Source: Clostridia bacterium
GTDB taxonomy: Bacteria > Bacillota > Clostridia > Christensenellales > Aristaeellaceae
Length of the DNA stretch: 53,594 nucleotides
Reading direction: 5' to 3'
NCBI GenBank assembly: GCA_017396845.1
Contig: JAFQKQ010000022.1
Coordinates: 1 to 53,594, forward strand
Below the pieces are notes generated by a model that worked only from the letters and a program-made list of their open reading frames with translations, ran no database searches and was not told the DNA's origin. The position numbers and the translations under genes are program-made. How positions within the stretch are numbered: the stretch's first letter is position 1; each line of letters begins with the position of its first letter. This document shows, in pieces, positions 3,005 to 32,687 of this stretch.

Positions 3005-3548
3005 GTATGTTTGAAAGCAATCGGTTCCGGATTGCTATAGATTTTTCAAACCGGCTGTATGCGCTCAGCACCACCGGCGAAAGTGTTTGATATTTTCAGA
3101 TGCGATTATTCAATCCAAAATCGATTTAAGCATCGAACATACTGTTTGCGCTCATCCCTCCACCGCTCACGCGATCCCCTCATTCCGGATCGCTTCGCTC
3201 TGCGCTTTGGCTGAGAATACGCCGTTAGCATGTTCTCTTAACGCTTCGCTCCTTCCCATCGCGATGGCGGCAAGCGAGCGGTTCGCCAATAAGGTCTGCC
3301 TTTTTGTATTTTTTGCAACAGCCCCAAAGATGTTTCACAATTTCTGACCGAAAAAATTTGTGCATCGCAGCAATATGCTCGCATGAACCTCTTTCGCATA
3401 ATGCACAAGCCTCTTGCCGCGTTTCTATCACGTGCATAAAGGAGCGATAGCGCCCGGGAGGCCGGCGCGTGAACACCTGAGAGATTCGTCCCCTGCATAC
3501 TTTCCCGGTTTTCAAGCCACCCTCATTATATACTTCTTTCAACGGCAT
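3005..3548. other. gene-poor intergenic stretch between secG and rnr
   Basis: About 550 bp with no convincing gene on either strand. A minus-strand frame of 148 codons crosses it but has no ribosome site and runs into rnr, so it is not called. No tmRNA-like or tRNA-like ends were found, although ssrA/smpB often lie near rnr in Clostridia. The segment 3405-3420 is an exact inverted copy of a 16-mer at 39065-39080. A possible -10, TATACT (3529-3534), could serve rnr, but its -35 is poor. Confidence 0.5.
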
Positions 3549-3562
3549 AAAGGAGATCAGCA

Positions 3563-5713
3563 TTGTATACCGACATTGTACTTGAATCGCTTCAAAAGCA
3601 GAAGCGCCCTGTGGAAGCAAAAAAAATCGCTGACGATCTTCAATTAAGCGAATCGGACGTGCTTTCATCACTCAATGCGCTTGCCGAGGAAGGGCGCGCT
3701 GTATTAACCAAGCAGCACAAATATGCGTCACTTCGCGTGATGGAGCTCACCCTTGCAACCGCCCGCGTGCTTCCCGGCGCGCCATCCTTTGCAAGGCCGG
3801 TTGACGGCGGAAACGATATCTATCTGGATATGCCGGAGGAAATCGCAATGGACGGCGACCGGATTCATGTTCGCCTGACCGCAAAGGGCGATCGACCGCG
3901 CGGCATTCTTGTACGAGTGGTGCGCCGCGCGCATAAAATGCTCACGGGCAACCTGTTTATCGAAACAGAGGAGCACGAACACCGAAGGCGGAGAAAGCAT
4001 TCCCGTCCGCGTCCCGCGCCTGTTCCCGAAGTATGGGCGCTGATTCCCGACAAGCGTCTTCCGGCGCGGATATCGGTGGAGGGCGATCTTGTGGGCGCAG
4101 CCGGCGGCGATCTGTGTCTTTTTGAAGTCACAAAATGGCCGAGGAAGGGCGCGCATATGACCGTTCGCGTTATCCGTCTCATCGGGCAGTCCTCCGATCT
4201 ATCTGCGCAGTTGGAAGCCGTATTGGCTCAAAACGGCATTTCCAAGGCATTTTCCGAAGAGGCGCTTGCTATGTCCGCAGCCTTCCCGCAAGCTCCTCAG
4301 AAAGGCGATTACGCAGGAAGACGCGACCTTCGGGATATGGAAATATTCACCATCGACGGGCGCGACGCGCAGGACTTTGACGACGCCGTTTCTCTTTCGG
4401 AAAACTCCGGCGTTTACACGCTCGGCGTTCACATTGCAGACGTATCCCATTATGTAACAATCGGCTGCGCGATTGACGCCGATGCGCGTCAGCGCGGAAC
4501 CAGCGTATACCTTCCCGGCCTTACCGTGCCCATGCTTCCGGAAGCGCTTTCTAACGGATTATGCTCGCTCAGACCGAACGAAGACCGCCTTACCTATTCC
4601 ATTATGATGACCGTTGAAAACGGGCGTGTAACGCGCTACGAGCTCTTTGAAGCGGTAATCCGATCAAAAGCACGGCTCACCTACGACGACGTAAATGACC
4701 TGTTTGCGGGGCGGGAAACAACGGTACCGCAAAATCTTCACGAAACACTTTTCCTGATGAATGAATTTGCCAAGACGCTTACAAAGCGGCGAATCGCAAG
4801 GGGCGCAATAGAACTCGATCTTCCGGAGCCCGAATTCGTACTCGGAGAAGATCTCGTGCCCACCGATGCACGCGCGAGGGAGCGCGGGGACGCGCACAGG
4901 CTGATTGAGGAATTTATGCTCATCGCCAATGAAACCGTCGCCGCGCACGCGCAGGCCTGCGAAATCCCGTTTCCCTACCGCGTGCATGAAGCCCCGGACT
5001 CCGAACGGCTTGAAACACTGGAAATGCTGCTCTCCGCCCTCGGCCGTCCTCACCGCCTCGGCGCGTCACCCTCGCCCGCAAAGCTGCAGGAAGTGCTTAA
5101 TGACTTTAATAACAGACCGGAGTCTGTTATTGTCGCCCGCACAATTCTCCGCTCGATGAGCCGCGCAAGGTATCTTGATAAACCGCTGGGGCACTATGGT
5201 CTCGCCGCCAGGGATTACTGCCATTTCACCTCCCCCATCCGCCGCTATCCGGATCTGCTCGCGCACAGAATGCTGAAAATGCACGCAAAAGGAAAGCTCA
5301 CCGAAACAGCGCATGCGGCATGGGCGGGAAGAATGGGCGAGCTTGCGCAGGAAGCCAGCGTATGCGAAGAACAGGCGGCGCAATGTGAGCGCACTGGAGA
5401 TCAGATTATGTGCGCCGCATACCTTTCAAACCACATCGGACGCGCGTTCACCGGCGTCGTCACTCACCTAAGCCGCCGCGGCGCGTTTGTAACGCTTAAA
5501 AATACTGCGGAGGGCAAAATCCCCCCGCAGCTGATGGACGACTTTTACGAGCTTGACGATGACCAAATCATGATGGTGGGAAAAAAAAGCCGCCGCGTCG
5601 TACGCCTGGGCGCAAAAATCCGCGTAGAAGTATACTCCGCAAATATCCCGTCCGGCGAAGTGGAATTCGCGATGCTTGAAGAGCGAAAGCCGAAACGAAA
5701 AAGCACATTCTAA
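3563..5713 (+). CDS. rnr: ribonuclease R (3'-5' exoribonuclease)
   Basis: A processive 3'-5' exonuclease that degrades structured RNA and takes part in RNA quality control. The 716 residues show the full RNase R order: N-terminal winged helix (about 1-60), cold-shock/OB domains (about 65-200), RNB catalytic domain (about 255-590) with the acidic metal site IDGRDAQDFDDA at 264-275, a conserved RARY...HYGLAARDYCHFTSPIRRYPDL block, an S1 domain (about 625-705) and a short basic tail (KPKRKSTF). Translation starts at TTG 3563, placed 8 nt after AAGGAG; no ATG fits as well. The gene follows secG as in many Bacillota, where smpB usually comes next, but here convergent engB follows. Confidence 0.97.
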   Translation: MYTDIVLESLQKQKRPVEAKKIADDLQLSESDVLSSLNALAEEGRAVLTKQHKYASLRVMELTLATARVLPGAPSFARPVDGGNDIYLDMPEEIAMDGDRIHVRLTAKGDRPRGILVRVVRRAHKMLTGNLFIETEEHEHRRRRKHSRPRPAPVPEVWALIPDKRLPARISVEGDLVGAAGGDLCLFEVTKWPRKGAHMTVRVIRLIGQSSDLSAQLEAVLAQNGISKAFSEEALAMSAAFPQAPQKGDYAGRRDLRDMEIFTIDGRDAQDFDDAVSLSENSGVYTLGVHIADVSHYVTIGCAIDADARQRGTSVYLPGLTVPMLPEALSNGLCSLRPNEDRLTYSIMMTVENGRVTRYELFEAVIRSKARLTYDDVNDLFAGRETTVPQNLHETLFLMNEFAKTLTKRRIARGAIELDLPEPEFVLGEDLVPTDARARERGDAHRLIEEFMLIANETVAAHAQACEIPFPYRVHEAPDSERLETLEMLLSALGRPHRLGASPSPAKLQEVLNDFNNRPESVIVARTILRSMSRARYLDKPLGHYGLAARDYCHFTSPIRRYPDLLAHRMLKMHAKGKLTETAHAAWAGRMGELAQEASVCEEQAAQCERTGDQIMCAAYLSNHIGRAFTGVVTHLSRRGAFVTLKNTAEGKIPPQLMDDFYELDDDQIMMVGKKSRRVVRLGAKIRVEVYSANIPSGEVEFAMLEERKPKRKSTF

Positions 5714-26968: not shown

Positions 26969-28285
26969 ATGAGCAGCTATGTCACCAAAAAAACCCCCGG
27001 AGATACCGCATGGTTCACCCGCGACCGCTTCGGCATGTTCATTCATTGGGGTCTGTATGCCATGCCTGCCCGGCACGAATGGATCAAGACCCGCGAAATG
27101 ATCTCGGAGGAGCATTACGACAAGTATTTCAAGTATTTCAATCCCGACCTGTACGACGCACGTGATTGGGCGCGTCAGGCCAAAGCCGCCGGTATGAAGT
27201 ACGCGGTGTTTACGACCAAGCATCACGAGGGTTTCTGCATGTGGGACAGCGCCTATACCGACTATAAATGCACCAACACCCCTGCCGGACGCGATCTCGT
27301 GCGTGAATATGTGGATGCTTTCCGCGCAGAAGGTCTTCGCGTAGGCTTCTATTACTCTCTGATCGACTGGCATCACCCCGAATTCCCGATCGATATGCTC
27401 CATCCGAGACGCGAAGACGCGGACGCATACGAGCAGAGCAAAGACAGAGACGTTAAAAAATACGCCGAATACATGCGCAATCAGGTCACCGAGCTTCTGA
27501 CCAATTACGGCAAGATCGATATTCTCTGGTTCGATTTCTCCTATTCCGGAGATAAGGGCAAGGGCGACAAGAGCTGGATGAAGGGTAAGGGCAAGGACGA
27601 CTGGGAGAGCGAGAAGCTGATCGCACTTGCAAGAGAGCTGCAGCCCGGCGTAATCATCGACAACCGCACCGAAATCGAGCAGGATATCTTTACGCCCGAG
27701 CAGTTCCAGCCCGTAGAATGGGTTCGCCATAAGGAAACGGGAGAATTGGTCAACTGGGAAGCCTGCCAGACCTTCTCCGGCAGCTGGGGCTACTACAGAG
27801 ACGAGCAGACCTGGAAGAGTCCCGAAATGCTGATCCGTATGCTGGTAAACACCGTCGCCATCGGCGGCAATCTCCTGATGAACGTAGGCCCCACCTCCCG
27901 CGGCTATCTCGATTACCGCGCCGAGGAAGCGCTGAAGGTGTATGCCGATTGGATGAAGTATCATTCCCGCGCAATTTACGGCTGCACGCAGGCGGAACCC
28001 GAGTTTACCGCCCCCGCCGACTGCCGCTTTACGCAGTCCGCAGACGGAAAGCGCCTCTACATTCACCTGTTCGCCTATCCGTTTGCGCATCTGCAGATTC
28101 CGGGACTCGGCGGCAAGGTGGACTACGCTCAGTTCCTGAACGACGGCAGCGAACTGCGTTTCTCCGACGGAAAGCTGGAGCATTTCGGAGAAGCCCTCCC
28201 AGAACAGGAAAACCTGCTCGTTATCTATCTGCCGCCCGTTAAGCCCAACACGATCGTTCCGGTCATCGAGCTGTTCCTGAAATAA
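26969..28285 (+). CDS. alpha-L-fucosidase, GH29 family
   Basis: 438 aa retaining fucosidase. Landmarks: FGMFIHWGLYAMPARHEW near 22-39, KAAGMKYAVFTTKHHEGFCMWDS near 74-96, GLRVGFYYSLIDWHHPEFP, and the nucleophile Asp in DILWFDFSY (about 189), followed by a WE..Q.F.GSWGYYRDE block and the LLMNVGPTSRG family signature. The C-terminal 100 residues form the beta-sandwich. No signal peptide, so the enzyme is cytosolic and probably acts on imported fucosylated oligosaccharides, perhaps those carried by the ABC importer at 21-25 kb. GGAGG lies 8 nt before the ATG. It follows the DsbD-like gene after 49 bp with no separate promoter seen. Confidence 0.94.
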   Translation: MSSYVTKKTPGDTAWFTRDRFGMFIHWGLYAMPARHEWIKTREMISEEHYDKYFKYFNPDLYDARDWARQAKAAGMKYAVFTTKHHEGFCMWDSAYTDYKCTNTPAGRDLVREYVDAFRAEGLRVGFYYSLIDWHHPEFPIDMLHPRREDADAYEQSKDRDVKKYAEYMRNQVTELLTNYGKIDILWFDFSYSGDKGKGDKSWMKGKGKDDWESEKLIALARELQPGVIIDNRTEIEQDIFTPEQFQPVEWVRHKETGELVNWEACQTFSGSWGYYRDEQTWKSPEMLIRMLVNTVAIGGNLLMNVGPTSRGYLDYRAEEALKVYADWMKYHSRAIYGCTQAEPEFTAPADCRFTQSADGKRLYIHLFAYPFAHLQIPGLGGKVDYAQFLNDGSELRFSDGKLEHFGEALPEQENLLVIYLPPVKPNTIVPVIELFLK

Positions 28286-28363: not shown

Positions 28364-30523
28364 TTATACTTCAAACTCGCTTCTTTCAATCACATTCTGC
28401 TGAAGCTCATCTGTTAGGTTTACAAAATAATCGCTGTAGCCGCCGACCCGTACGATCAGATTTTTGTATTTTTCCGGGTTTTCCCGAGCGCGGAGCAGCT
28501 CCTCCCGGTCGACAACATTCACGGAAAGCTGCTGACCGCCGTTTGCAAAATACGCCTTTGCAAGGTTCACAAACGCATCCATGCCTTTTTCGGTATTGAA
28601 AAGCGCCTTGGTGAACTTCATCTGCGCTACGAAACCGCTGCATGCCTCCGTCTGATCGTAATGAAGCATGGATTTGATCGACGCGGTCGGGCCCTTCATA
28701 TCGTTTCCGGGCGTCGCGGAAATACTGTCGGCGAAATTGCTCTCCCCGTTTTTTCTGCCGTTGGGAAGCGCCGATGTATGCATGCCGTTCACAGCCGCGC
28801 GGTTAAACGGGCTGCAGCCGCCGGTATATACGCCGCCCCGATACGTTTCTTTCGTTTTGAGGTACGTAAAGAAATGCAAAACGATCTGCGCACAGAGCTC
28901 ATCCGCCTCCGCGATATCGTTTCCGAACTTATCGCAGCCCATGCATTCGAGCCGTATTTTCTCATATCCTTCAAAATCGGCCTCCAACGCTTGAATAAGC
29001 TGCGCCATCGTGTATTTCTTTTCATCATATACAAGCTTCTTGACGGCATATATAGAATCCGCCGCGTCCGCTATGCCCTCGGCTAAGATCTGCCCATGGC
29101 CGTACAGCGGTCCGCCGCTTTGATAATCCGTTCCTTTTTCAAGACACCCCTGATGCAGGCAAGAGCGCAGCGGATTGGAGCCATACATCGAGCGGCATTT
29201 CTGCGCCTTGTTCGCCATATCGACGCATGCATCCGTAAGCTCGTCAAGGTGCTTATAATAAAGCGACAGAAAATCCGAAAAGCATTCCATGCTGCGCGGA
29301 TCGCCGTGCGGCTTCGTCATCCGCTCTCCGCCGCCCGAAAACAGATCGATTCCCATGTGCAGCGTGTATTCCAGCGCCTTTGCAAGATTCACCTCGCCGT
29401 CTTCCAACCCCATATGCGATTTCCCCATAATATCAATCTGATTGCAGCCGTTCATGCAGTAATCATGGCTGTCCTCAGGCGGTATTCCGATTTTTTCAAG
29501 CGCCCGGCATACAACTTCATCGTTGTAAAGCGCAGGAAGCCCGATTCCCGTAGCGATGGACTGCGCCGCCAGTCGATACACCGCTTCCGGCGTATTCCTG
29601 TGCACGCGAAGCGTGAGGTTGGGTGTCTGATATCCCTTTTCCTTCACTTTTTTGAGCATGGCAAACGTAAGCGCATTGCTTTCGTCCGCCCAGTTTTCGT
29701 CGCTTCCCGACAAGCAAAGATTCCAGCCGCGCACATTATGAATCATTTCCAGAAACCTGTCCAGCATTTCATCATTTTCTTCCGCGCTGCTGTTTCTGTA
29801 AAAGTCGATCATGAACTGATCGAATCTTCCCGGGGAATCCACGCCGTCAAACGTGTATACCAGCGAAAAAAACAATACCGCATCATGCATGTCATTCGCC
29901 GGTTCAAACGGAATTCTTTCAAATGCCTTTGCGATTCTTTTCCATATCCGTCTTCCGTTTTCAGAAGGATCATTCTCCGCCATATATTCCGCTTTTTCAC
30001 GAATTCTTCTTCCCAGAATATCGATTGCGTCCATAGAGTATGCACACGCATCGTAAAACGCATCCTTTTCGGGGTTTATTCGCCTGTATTTCTCAATAAG
30101 GCTTCTGATTCCGCCGGTACCCAGATGCAAAAGCCTGTCGTAGTCCGGGTTGCTGTGTCCGCCCCACGTGCCGCCCCAGCACGCCTTGTTTTCGATCAGG
30201 TGCATATCTCTTTCGGAAAGCGCGTTCATCACCTGCTTTTGCGTGACAAACGCATCCATGCTTCTTTGTATATCAAGAATTTCTTCTTCTCTGTCAGGGT
30301 ATTTTTTTGTGAGCTCGTCTCTTCTTCCCTGATCTTCAAATACGCATTCGCCGTATCTGTATCCAAAAGACGAATCCTCCGCAATCGGATTCACCTGAGG
30401 CAGCATGCTGTTTTCGGGAAACACTATCTCCTGATGCTCCGCCGCCCGCTTCATGCCCAGGGCGACGCGCTCTATAATGCTTTTATCGCCGTTTTCAAGA
30501 AATGCGCGCGCAAAGAACTCCAT
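28364..30523 (-). CDS. glycyl radical enzyme of unassigned function (PFL-like)
   Basis: 719 aa. The C-terminal radical loop RVGGYSDYF puts the glycyl radical at Gly695, and the active-site loop HDYCMNGCNQIDIMGKS puts the thiyl Cys at Cys360. In the diol dehydratase, CutC and arylacetate-decarboxylase classes the loop reads GCVE, with Glu acting as base; here it is GCNQ (Gln362). It also lacks the CC pair of pyruvate formate-lyase. It is about 80-100 aa shorter than most eliminases, and its N-terminus (about 1-110) is divergent. Other family blocks are present, such as PNLTLRVH and TGIGLPALYND. No activating radical-SAM enzyme is encoded in the window. It follows the sensor kinase gene by 29 bp and is probably cotranscribed. 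The substrate is unknown. Confidence 0.88.
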   Translation of the reverse strand: MEFFARAFLENGDKSIIERVALGMKRAAEHQEIVFPENSMLPQVNPIAEDSSFGYRYGECVFEDQGRRDELTKKYPDREEEILDIQRSMDAFVTQKQVMNALSERDMHLIENKACWGGTWGGHSNPDYDRLLHLGTGGIRSLIEKYRRINPEKDAFYDACAYSMDAIDILGRRIREKAEYMAENDPSENGRRIWKRIAKAFERIPFEPANDMHDAVLFFSLVYTFDGVDSPGRFDQFMIDFYRNSSAEENDEMLDRFLEMIHNVRGWNLCLSGSDENWADESNALTFAMLKKVKEKGYQTPNLTLRVHRNTPEAVYRLAAQSIATGIGLPALYNDEVVCRALEKIGIPPEDSHDYCMNGCNQIDIMGKSHMGLEDGEVNLAKALEYTLHMGIDLFSGGGERMTKPHGDPRSMECFSDFLSLYYKHLDELTDACVDMANKAQKCRSMYGSNPLRSCLHQGCLEKGTDYQSGGPLYGHGQILAEGIADAADSIYAVKKLVYDEKKYTMAQLIQALEADFEGYEKIRLECMGCDKFGNDIAEADELCAQIVLHFFTYLKTKETYRGGVYTGGCSPFNRAAVNGMHTSALPNGRKNGESNFADSISATPGNDMKGPTASIKSMLHYDQTEACSGFVAQMKFTKALFNTEKGMDAFVNLAKAYFANGGQQLSVNVVDREELLRARENPEKYKNLIVRVGGYSDYFVNLTDELQQNVIERSEFEV

Positions 30524-30552: not shown

Positions 30553-31935
30553 CTACCAATCCTGATTTTCATTCGAATCAAGCGTTCTGTCCGAATACCC
30601 CGGAAGTGAAATTCTGGCGATGAACACGTCGCTGCGCTCTTCCGTCTCAAACACGCCGCCGTGGCTTTCCATGATTTTTCTGCAGGACGCAAGCCCAATC
30701 CCGCTGCTTTCCGCGCTGCCGCTTTTTTCTTTAAGGCCGTTTCTCACTTCCATCTGATACGCGCCGTTTCTAAGGCCGAGTATTACGATTACAGGCTCTT
30801 CCCGATCGGCGTATTTCCTGATATTGGAAACGAGGTTGTCGAACACGCGCCGCAAAAATGTGGGGTTCGCCTTTACCGCGCAGCTGCCCTCCGCTTCCTG
30901 AAGCGTTACTGCAAATCCATCCGATTCAAGCGCCATTGCGCTTTCCTCCCAAAGTTGACCAAACAGCATGGCCGCATCCAGCGTCTCTGTTTCCATCTCC
31001 TCATCCGCCGACGAATACACCAGAAAATATTCAAACAGCTTATCCGTCATTTCCTTGATCTGATACGCCTTCAGCTTGCCCGAATGAATATACCTTTGCG
31101 CCTGCTCCGGATTTGCGCATTTTCCGAGATCTACAATATCGAGATAGCCGATCAGCGACGTAAGCGGCGTTCTCAGATCATGCGACATGGCCGTCAGAAG
31201 CTCGGAAGCGTTTTTGGTCATCCGCTCCTCATTTTCAAGCCTTTCTATAAACGACAAACGCATATTCTCGATATCCCTTGCAAGGCTTGTAAGCTCATCC
31301 CGCCCTTTGACCGTCATGGGGCGCGACAAATCTCCTCCTTCAATCGCCTGAAGCTCACGGCTGAGAAGCGCGATATAGCGCATCTTTCCCCGGATAAACG
31401 CGTACAGAACGCCTACAAACAGCAAAAATGAACAGGCGAGATTTACATACATTGCGTATGTCTTCGCCCTGTACATCGGAAAATACATCACCTTTACAAC
31501 CCTTGAGCGCATAATATCGCCCGAAGACATCACCGGACACGAATACCAGTAATCGGCGTATTCGTCCTGCAGCAGATCATACATCGCAAGCGCGTCGCTT
31601 ACGGACGTATACAACACCCCGTCGGTTTCATCGTGCAGATAGGAAACCTGCGCATCGTACACCGCAAGCATGAGATCGTCTTTATCCTTCACAAACGCCT
31701 GTATCGCACCCTTGTTGGAAAGCGTTGCGCGGCTTACGTTCATATGATCCAGAAATTCGTTAAACAGCGCCTTCTCCGTATTCCGAATCGCTTCTTTTGT
31801 ATATATCACGCGGTCAATCAGGTATTCGCCCGCGCTTTCAAGGCCGAAAAACGCGCATGCGGCGATGAAACCCGAAAACAGCGTACACATTACCAGCATT
31901 ACGCCCAGGCGCATGCCCGGCTTTTTCTTAGTCAA
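30553..31935 (-). CDS. sensor histidine kinase
   Basis: 460 aa. TM1 at about 10-30, an extracellular sensor region of about 130 residues (30-162), TM2 at about 163-182, HAMP (about 183-235), a dimerisation helix with the phospho-acceptor His252 in AMSHDLRTPLTSLIGYLDIV, and a HATPase domain with the N box DNLVSNIRKYA and the G box SSGIGLASCRKIMESHGG. The PFMYR-like segment near 152-156 lies just before TM2. Its start overlaps the response-regulator stop by 8 bp. The arrangement next to an htrA operon resembles CssS of Bacillus, but the sensor domain was not matched to a named family. Confidence 0.92.
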   Translation of the reverse strand: MTKKKPGMRLGVMLVMCTLFSGFIAACAFFGLESAGEYLIDRVIYTKEAIRNTEKALFNEFLDHMNVSRATLSNKGAIQAFVKDKDDLMLAVYDAQVSYLHDETDGVLYTSVSDALAMYDLLQDEYADYWYSCPVMSSGDIMRSRVVKVMYFPMYRAKTYAMYVNLACSFLLFVGVLYAFIRGKMRYIALLSRELQAIEGGDLSRPMTVKGRDELTSLARDIENMRLSFIERLENEERMTKNASELLTAMSHDLRTPLTSLIGYLDIVDLGKCANPEQAQRYIHSGKLKAYQIKEMTDKLFEYFLVYSSADEEMETETLDAAMLFGQLWEESAMALESDGFAVTLQEAEGSCAVKANPTFLRRVFDNLVSNIRKYADREEPVIVILGLRNGAYQMEVRNGLKEKSGSAESSGIGLASCRKIMESHGGVFETEERSDVFIARISLPGYSDRTLDSNENQDW

Positions 31936-32626
31936 TTCGATAGCCCTTTCCCCAAACGGTTTTAATATACTTCGGATTTTCCGGATCCGGCTCTATTTTT
32001 CGCCTGAGATTTCTGATATGGACCATGATGGTGTTGTTGCAGGAGTAAAAATACGGCTCGTTCCAGATGCTTTCATACAAATTCTCCGCCGAAAAAACCT
32101 TTCTTCGGTTTTCGGCCATCAGAACCAGCATCCGGTATTCAATATCGGTAAGCTGAATATCCCGTCCCTCAACAGACACTTCCCCCGTCGTTTTGTTGAT
32201 CGAAATATCCCGAACGTTCAAAATATCGTCGCCCGTTTTCTCCTCCTTGCCGCCGTATACGAAATACCTGCGCAAAAGCGCCTTCACGCGGGAGGTTAGC
32301 TCGGAATAGGAAAAGGGCTTCGGCAGATAATCATCACCGCCGGAGGAAAATCCCATCGATTTGTCGCCATCCTGCGATTTTGCGGTCAAAAACAGTATGG
32401 GCGAAATGCTCCTGTTTCGAATCTCCCGACACACCTGATAGCCATTTTTCCCCGGCATCATTACATCCAGTATATAAAGATCGATATCCTCGGATATCTT
32501 TAAAACCGCCTCGTCTCCGTCCGCCGCTTCCTCCACGCGGTACCCTTCGCTCTCCATCAGAATCCTGACAACCTCTCGGATATCCTTATCGTCATCCGCA
32601 ATCAGGATCGTCTTTATGTCCGCCAA
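31928..32626 (-). CDS. OmpR/PhoB-family response regulator
   Basis: 232 aa. Receiver domain with acidic pocket ADDD (10-13), phospho-acceptor Asp54 in LYILDVMMPGKNG, the FLTAK switch and the KPFS lysine; then a winged-helix output domain with LTDIEYRMLVLMAENRRKVFS, VHIRNLRRKIE and the ending YIKTVWGKGYRI. The start is the TTG at 32624-32626, 8 nt after GAGG; the earlier in-frame start lies upstream of the mapped -10 box. Phosphorylated by the adjacent kinase, it probably acts on the shared control region that also faces the foldase-HtrA operon. Confidence 0.93.
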   Translation of the reverse strand: MADIKTILIADDDKDIREVVRILMESEGYRVEEAADGDEAVLKISEDIDLYILDVMMPGKNGYQVCREIRNRSISPILFLTAKSQDGDKSMGFSSGGDDYLPKPFSYSELTSRVKALLRRYFVYGGKEEKTGDDILNVRDISINKTTGEVSVEGRDIQLTDIEYRMLVLMAENRRKVFSAENLYESIWNEPYFYSCNNTIMVHIRNLRRKIEPDPENPKYIKTVWGKGYRID

Positions 32627-32647
32627 ATCGATCACCTCTTTTCCTCC

Positions 32648-32676
32648 ATTATACAGGCAAAAAACCATAATTTCCA
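32648..32676 (-). promoter_or_regulatory. promoter of the regulator-kinase-glycyl radical enzyme operon
   Basis: TATAAT (32648-32653) on the minus strand with a poor -35 (TGGAAA, 32671-32676) 17 bp away, as expected for an activator-dependent promoter. The leader would be only about 15 nt. Confidence 0.65.
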
Positions 32677-32687
32677 GACCCATGTTT

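Follow-up and report, generated by a model that had tools for sequence, protein, structure and literature searches.

A clostridial subfamily of glycyl radical enzymes with a conserved glutamine two residues past the thiyl cysteine

The current study concerns a glycyl radical enzyme encoded within a 53,594-nucleotide stretch of DNA from a member of the Clostridia (hereafter, the window; contig JAFQKQ010000022.1 of assembly GCA_017396845.1, family Aristaeellaceae), which corresponds to contig C110 in full, part of a draft genome of 2.79 Mb that is 73% complete. The enzyme carries a glutamine two residues past its thiyl cysteine, within the motif GCNQ, and it belongs to a group that we refer to as the CNQ subfamily (throughout, L-numbers denote loci, G-numbers denote genomes, and C-numbers denote contigs of the window genome). 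It is highly probable that CNQ enzymes represent an active and separate glycyl radical enzyme subfamily, whose member in the window is activated in trans. We further propose, tentatively and with somewhat less than even confidence, that their reaction is of the elimination type and yields a carbonyl compound. For the scheme as a whole, which combines a new CNQ subfamily, activation in trans, a Gln362 accompanied by a substituted base, and carbonyl chemistry, we consider the case to be evenly balanced.

At positions 28364-30523, the plus strand contains stop codons and the open frame of 719 codons is found on the minus strand (Table 1). A preliminary description of this DNA, made from its letters and naming no strand, had reported a GCNQ loop with Cys360 and Gln362 together with an intact RVGGY glycyl loop. 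Both readings hold for the minus-strand protein, whose cysteine region, HDYCMNGCNQIDIMGKSHMGLEDGE, includes Cys360, Asn361, and Gln362, and whose Gly_radical domain scores 94.9 bits against a Pfam cut-off of 22.2. Three sequence features of the glycyl radical enzyme superfamily are found in this protein, namely a pyruvate formate-lyase (PFL)-like barrel (335 bits; cut-off 24.3), a C-terminal Gly_radical domain with the RVxG[FWY] motif, and a thiyl cysteine in mid-protein. Unlike the aminoacyl radical enzymes, in which the radical glycine is described as being exchanged for Ala, Ser, or Thr (PMC11528403), the window protein retains its Gly695.

Relatives were collected in a first scan of genome contigs using six peptide patterns, among which the GCNQ motif was not included. 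Of the 60 relatives obtained, 21 (L047-L067) form a tight group with GCNQID in every member, and the 20 of these that were aligned are 42-53% identical to the window protein. A profile built from this group plus the window protein scored its members at 1061 bits or more, these having themselves been part of the profile, vs. at most 421 bits for the other radical enzymes then compared. In later searches, the lowest complete member reached 800 bits and the highest non-member 460 bits. An order-level search placed CNQ genes in 4 of 396 genomes, including that of the window (newly found: G278, G381, and G266), while a class-level search placed them in 7 of 391 genomes, again including that of the window, at 800 bits or more (newly found: G1012, G987, G1249, G1117, G1257, and G1133). 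Both searches scored at most two candidates per genome, which makes the copy numbers lower bounds. Sixteen further genomes of the class gave matches of about 405-456 bits, which belong to other classes according to their loops, where these were read. The genomes of L061 and L062 each contain a second CNQ copy, and that of L059 contains a tandem triple. Within the family to which the window belongs, 150 genomes yielded no second CNQ gene, the next best match being 287 bits vs. 1681 for the window gene. A plasmid search yielded distant relatives only, in 142 records, all below 60% identity among the best 8 of the 142. No description of the CNQ group was found in the open-licence papers searched, none of which pairs "glycyl radical" with "GCNQ".

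The final recount comprised 39 CNQ genes from 31 genomes, including one cut by a contig end (L067), one shortened by a few tens of residues (L062), and two that are 99.9% alike (L053 and L054). GCNQ is present in all 39 genes and MNGCNQIDI in 37, with two additional contig-cut fragments carrying the motif as well. The radical glycine is found in 38 of the 39, the remaining gene, L067, ending at the contig edge. Since these genes were found by whole-protein similarity and the motif itself was not searched for, its presence in 39 of 39 indicates that Gln362 reflects more than chance, and a sequencing error as the source of the glutamine is ruled out by the same count. A DNA pattern for GCNQIDI gave one extra match among 398 genomes of the phylum, in G700; as this genome lacks any PFL-like match at E <= 1e-20, the hit was taken as chance. 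The ratio of nonsynonymous to synonymous substitution rates (dN/dS) was 0.053-0.100 in seven of eight CNQ pairs, the pair containing the window gene being saturated; CNQ genes are under strong purifying selection. In a 69-row alignment, the thiyl cysteine column is Cys in every row, whereas Gln362 occurs in 29 of 29 CNQ rows, 0 of 6 rows of the GCQE class, and 0 of 34 other rows. Among the latter, Glu (16 rows), Asp (8), and Ser (6) prevail at this position, so that Glu is not general among the other classes compared. The 1.6-Mb draft G916 (genome of L059; L209-L213) encodes 13 PFL-like genes and one TIGR02494-type activase at E <= 1e-40, with three tandem CNQ genes behind the activase and a fourth elsewhere, as well as six GCQE enzymes, including a tandem run of four. 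The 2.5-Mb draft G915 (genome of L058) has 17 PFL-like matches, at least one gene being counted twice, and nine activases.

When examining phylogenetic placement, CNQ proteins form one clade, with a Shimodaira-Hasegawa-like approximate likelihood ratio test (SH-aLRT) value of 100 in a larger tree, with 29 rows, and bootstrap/SH-aLRT values of 100/99 in two others, with 13 and 15 rows. Their neighbors are the uncharacterized GCQE, GCTE, and GCNE classes, and the branching order varies between trees: a GCTE pair is sister to CNQ in one of the latter two (97/95), whereas the GCTE row joins a GCSQ pair in the other (93/94), so that the sister position of CNQ depends upon the tree. Because of this variable order, Glu is no more than likely to be the older state at position 362. 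The GCQE and GCTE enzymes (e.g. L210, L237, and L145) lie near CNQ in the trees, and GCQE has GKS..G.EDG and Cys570 in common with CNQ, yet both classes keep Glu two residues past the cysteine. The GCSQ class, which is equally uncharacterized and was found after the 69-row alignment, has Gln at that place (L238:1399-3663, GCSQVMIPGQ; L241:793-3225, GCSQIMVPGR). Gln at position 362 is thus not confined to CNQ, although the two GCSQ enzymes, with 754 and 810 residues and 443-447 bits to the CNQ profile, fall outside the CNQ clade. Other cysteine loops were noted in passing: L194, L195, L197, and L198, from genomes of the L047 branch, combine a GCQEPLIMG loop with a C-terminal RIHGTF in place of RVxG[FWY], an uncommon fingerprint in which the glycine is kept, and the loop at L074:9911 reads GCVY in full alignments.

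Comparisons with curated models support the separate status of the subfamily. The window protein scored well below every curated cut-off, including those of the dehydratase-type subfamily model TIGR01774 (336 bits of 678), the eliminases (HypD, 301 of 1100; HpsG, 287 of 1000; CutC, 283 of 1050; PRK09983, 269 of 1109; HpfG, 264 of 1000), the decarboxylases (IAD, 192 of 1100; HPAD, 154 of 1150), which also differ in having Glu where CNQ has Gln, and PFL (TIGR01255, 88.7 of 994.2), which has a Cys-Cys pair in place of Cys-Asn. L236, the most basal member, reached 565 of 678 bits with TIGR01774, and L247 of G1257, which is closest to the window enzyme, shares 55% identity with it. Judged by these scores and by the trees, CNQ is a separate, uncharacterized subfamily, as had been anticipated in the preliminary description. 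Among solved structures, the CNQ profile ranks glycerol dehydratase (1r8w, 427 bits) and diol dehydratase (5i2a, 410 bits) highest and the decarboxylases 7e7l (289 bits) and 2y8n (177 bits) low. The CNQ loop also reads CNQI and not the CMSP that marks the benzyl- and alkylsuccinate synthases, and CNQ stands apart in the tree from L076 and L096, which both have CMSP.

One of the central questions raised by these enzymes is what the glutamine means for catalysis. An engineered exchange of Glu for Gln in IslA still permits radical loading and abolishes turnover (PMC8473560); the E436Q and H160Q variants of HypD, in which His160 is 2.5 A from Glu436, carry the radical and are inactive (PMC7077986); Glu491 is the base in simulations of CutC (PMC12451663); and IAD E502Q, made "to mimic PAD", gains the radical and loses its activity (PMC9248008). 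Since this exchange stops turnover in IslA, HypD, and IAD, a natural Gln suggests either other chemistry or a relocated base. Precedent exists in phenylacetate decarboxylase (PAD, PhdB), which is described as having Gln two residues past its thiyl cysteine (PMC9248008). The preliminary description had assigned Glu to eliminases and decarboxylases alike. The eliminase Glu is indeed gone in CNQ, but given the Gln of PAD, Glu is not general among decarboxylases.

The glycerol and diol dehydratases resemble CNQ enzymes in the kind of their cysteine and glycine loops, and they are longer, at 787 and 843 residues. In the alignment with glycerol dehydratase, Cys360 faces Cys433, whereas Gln362 faces Glu435, and the stretch containing His281 and Ser282, which we take to bind glycerol, is missing from CNQ. 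The counterparts of His164 and Asp447 of the dehydratase are His123 and Glu374, respectively, which suggests that His123 may serve as an acid/base and that Glu374 may have a role as well. His123, Asp229, Glu374, Glu377, Gln478, and Glu482 are each found in 39 of 39 CNQ genes, His476 and Thr300 in 38, and Asn125 and Tyr298 in 37, and Glu374 in all six GCQE rows also. Seven of these residues (Asn125, Tyr298, Thr300, His476, Gln478, Glu482, and Glu377) are absent or nearly so from the 34 other rows.

The question of activation was addressed through the radical S-adenosylmethionine (SAM) activases. None of the 15 activase-model matches in the window genome (E <= 0.001) is located on C110, in agreement with the earlier report that the window encodes no activase. 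Of the 35 subfamily loci, 22 carry a radical-SAM activase gene as a neighbor of the CNQ gene. It is directly upstream in all 13 loci of one branch (L047-L057, i.e. 11 loci, plus L063 and L067), directly downstream in L064, L114 (G381), L115 (G266), L214 (G919), L245, and L246, and upstream of tandem CNQ genes in L209 (three genes), L243, and L244. No activase was found beside the CNQ gene in the other 13 loci (the window, L058-L062, L065, L066, L113, L215, L242, L247, and L248), of which L062 and L242 are truncated at a contig edge and say little in this regard. In calling neighboring genes, the longest frame was chosen, so that a gene may be masked by a longer frame on the opposite strand, as happened with the activases of L067, L216, and L244; for unlinked loci, an activase was therefore also sought in all frames or across the whole genome. 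In the window genome, four activases exceed the model cut-off (on C80, C105, C32, and C92), with 11 weaker matches below it. Those of C80 and C105 adjoin their own radical enzymes, whereas C32 and C92 have none in the stretches read; an activase elsewhere in the genome, which the preliminary description had advised looking for, thus has two unpaired candidates. Given the 22 linked loci and these four strong activases, the missing activase of the window carries no weight as the sign of an odd subclass that it had been taken to be. The four PFL-like genes of this genome reside on C69, C110 (the window gene), C80, and C105; that of C80 (L003, G000:C80:58922-60421) is another radical enzyme, with a GCYN cysteine loop lacking the Glu, an RVSGW glycyl loop, and the adjoining activase.

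In three trees, the C92 activase (positions 3267-4331) pairs as sister with the activase that is linked to CNQ in G266 (100/95, 100/97, and 100/98), with 51% identity. Its contig is just 5.3 kb, so a partner gene could lie past its ends. The C32 activase shares a broader group with C92, within which its position is not resolved further. Further support comes from G922 and G923 (L065 and L066), each of which encodes two PFL-like genes, a canonical PFL and a CNQ enzyme, together with one TIGR02494-type activase at E <= 1e-40 that is unlinked to the CNQ gene. Because this sole activase groups with activases linked to CNQ genes, and the activases that adjoin PFL genes in G911, G913, and G920 fall elsewhere, activation of CNQ in trans is suggested. 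As judged from these groupings, activation in trans is well supported for part of the subfamily.

The genes accompanying CNQ loci offer some hints as to the chemistry. When 27 neighborhoods were clustered at 35% identity, five clusters spanned at least three loci: the CNQ enzyme, the activase, an aldo-keto reductase, a flavin adenine dinucleotide (FAD)-dependent oxidoreductase, and a transporter-like protein. The aldo-keto reductase is directly upstream of the CNQ gene and near the activase in L064, L114, and L214, and it adjoins the activase alone in G917 and G918, where the CNQ genes are elsewhere. All 5 genomes of one branch of the activase tree (100/99) thereby possess it, with 64-69% identity to the L114 copy, and the reductase resembles YvgN and the 2,5-diketogluconate reductases (3f7j, 282 bits; DkgA, 226 of 425). 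From this linkage, it follows that the CNQ enzyme may either produce or consume a carbonyl compound. A short-chain dehydrogenase takes the place of the aldo-keto reductase 15 bases upstream in L058, and a related reductase occurs 3.9 kb away in L051. Sugar-acid genes lie near two loci, a 2-keto-3-deoxy-6-phosphogluconate (KDPG) aldolase by L114 and a hexuronate-type cluster by L065, the latter as read from protein starts, and are at best a weak clue to the substrate. No microcompartment genes were noticed beside CNQ loci in the protein starts read, no model search having been made for them. As for the FAD-dependent oxidoreductase, it is found upstream of the activase-CNQ pair at L047:5587-6936, L054:5649-6905, and L056:3633-4928; PF12831 was confirmed for the L054 and L056 proteins, and the gene at L047 falls into one cluster with its L054 counterpart.

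Based upon these features, a working mechanism can be proposed. An unlinked radical-SAM activase, with C92 as the candidate and C32 as the second candidate, would install the radical on Gly695, from which it would move to Cys360. The latter would then take hydrogen from a small polar and perhaps sugar-derived substrate. Gln362 could hold this substrate through hydrogen bonds and would be unable to accept its proton, in which case the acid-base step of the eliminase Glu would be performed by His123, Glu374, Asp229, His476, Glu482, or Glu377, or would be unneeded. A carbonyl compound would most likely be made or used, and the linked aldo-keto reductase would handle that carbonyl in part of the subfamily. 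That the CNQ reaction differs from known glycyl radical enzyme reactions, as had been suggested earlier, is no more than plausible. A bolder version appears possible but doubtful: CNQ would catalyze a new reaction type on a sugar-derived substrate of herbivore-gut Clostridia, with Gln362 positioning a carbonyl or carboxylate and His123 or a subfamily-typical acid moving the proton, and together with GCSQ and PAD it would make "CXQ" a recurrent second thiyl-loop design beside "CXE".

Several observations weigh against this mechanism. A single branch accounts for the aldo-keto reductase, in 5 of 7 genomes of the matching CNQ-enzyme clade, and the gene is not in the stretches seen around L065 and L066; none lies near the window gene, and no ortholog was found in the 73%-complete window genome, the best match there being 46 bits. 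Besides the activase and this reductase, no informative neighbor recurs among the 27 neighborhoods, for which reason no pathway is proposed. L247, the nearest relative, lacks a linked activase, and both activases encoded in G1257, its genome, group with neither C92 nor C32, so that C92 and C32 are no more than candidate trans partners. In G922 and G923, the activase of the canonical PFL was itself not seen at E <= 1e-40, and the assignment of the sole activase to CNQ is consequently one that we infer. Finally, the residues put forward in place of the Glu base are candidates picked by sequence alignment.

The principal alternative retains familiar chemistry. CNQ might be an ordinary dehydratase of polyols or sugar derivatives, in which Glu374, Asp229, or His123 replaces the lost Glu and only details differ. 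Glycerol and diol dehydratases are the closest solved relatives, the counterparts of His164 and Asp447 are universal within the subfamily, the neighboring GCQE, GCTE, and GCNE classes keep the Glu, and an aldo-keto reductase would be suited to reducing an aldehyde product. However, the loop with His281 and Ser282 is missing, the exchange of Glu for Gln kills the eliminases in which it was tested (PMC8473560, PMC7077986), and the near-fixed polar residues Asn125, Tyr298, Thr300, His476, Gln478, Glu482, and Glu377 point to a different pocket, all of which makes this explanation seem unlikely, though one to be taken seriously. A decarboxylase akin to PAD/PhdB is improbable. Its Gln would suit hydrogen abstraction next to a carboxylate, where deprotonation of a hydroxyl is unneeded, and CNQ hosts are Clostridia of the gut (for L047-L067, a gut site of a herbivore is given in 15 of 21 record titles), in whose surroundings aromatic acids are likely to be at hand. 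Yet the IAD and HPAD scores are low compared with that of the dehydratase-type model TIGR01774, the solved structures place both dehydratases ahead of 7e7l and 2y8n, and an aldo-keto reductase partner would be unexpected for such an enzyme.

Two further explanations are far less credible. A decaying or inactive paralogue, deprived of its base and its activase, would account for a contig without an activase and would accord with the inactivity of several tested relatives after the same exchange, but we consider it very improbable in view of the invariant Gln, the purifying selection, and the intact Cys and Gly loops, as well as the activase beside 22 of 35 loci and the tandem CNQ copies in G916 and G987. 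A pseudogene was rejected on the grounds of that selection and both intact loops. The least credible of all is that CNQ stands in for PFL. Many loci are indeed stand-alone two-gene units devoid of dedicated pathway genes, and a Cys-Cys pair is absent from all four PFL-like genes in the window genome; nonetheless, CNQ lacks this pair too, its PFL score is 89 bits vs. a cut-off of 994, and a canonical PFL with the ACCVS motif resides together with a CNQ gene in G912, G914, G922, and G923.

Many sequences of the oxygen-sensitive glycyl radical enzymes have no known function, and several key anaerobic gut reactions are driven by the family (PMC6181972). CNQ is compact and clearly delimited, the very residue that marks eliminases is exchanged throughout, and an activase is linked in 22 of 35 loci and a reductase in one branch, all of which renders the group a tractable target. 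The Gln precedent in PAD and in the GCSQ class lowers the surprise of Gln362, whereas a compact family with a linked activase and reductase raises its value as a test case.

Table 1. Features of the CNQ gene and its surroundings in the window.
Feature	Position	Strand	Remarks
CNQ-type glycyl radical enzyme gene	28364..30523	-	719 aa; ATG at 30523, stop 28364-28366
Cys loop M357-E377 (MNGCNQIDIMGKSHMGLEDGE)	29393..29455	-	thiyl Cys360 29444-29446, Gln362 29438-29440
Glycyl loop RVGGY, radical Gly695	28436..28450	-	near C-terminal end, context LIVRVGGYSD
His123	30155..30157	-	aligned with His164 of glycerol dehydratase; 39/39 CNQ genes
Glu374	29402..29404	-	aligned with Asp447 of glycerol dehydratase; 39/39 CNQ genes, 6/6 GCQE rows
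Histidine kinase gene (HAMP, HisKA, HATPase_c)	30553..31935	-	directly upstream of radical enzyme gene
Response regulator gene (receiver + winged-helix domain)	31928..32683	-	upstream of kinase
Inverted repeat, perfect 16 bases, 9-base loop	28300..28340		separates convergent radical enzyme and fucosidase genes
Alpha-L-fucosidase-like gene	26969..28285	+	PF01120, 294 bits; convergent, outside the unit

As had been reported, the window gene follows a two-component system, with the kinase and response regulator directly upstream on the same strand. The kinase stop codon and the start codon of the radical enzyme are 29 bases apart, and the three genes may be co-transcribed. As a clue to function, this arrangement did not hold up: a two-component pair does not recur beside CNQ genes among the 27 clustered neighborhoods, and a response regulator that adjoins L214 shows no more than 32% identity, for which reasons a conserved tie was rejected. 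A role for the fucosidase was likewise rejected, as the gene is convergent and not recurrent among the same neighborhoods. The inverted repeat between the two convergent genes was not listed by a terminator scan that allowed loops of 3-8 bases, its own loop being 9 bases, and it possibly acts as a two-way terminator.

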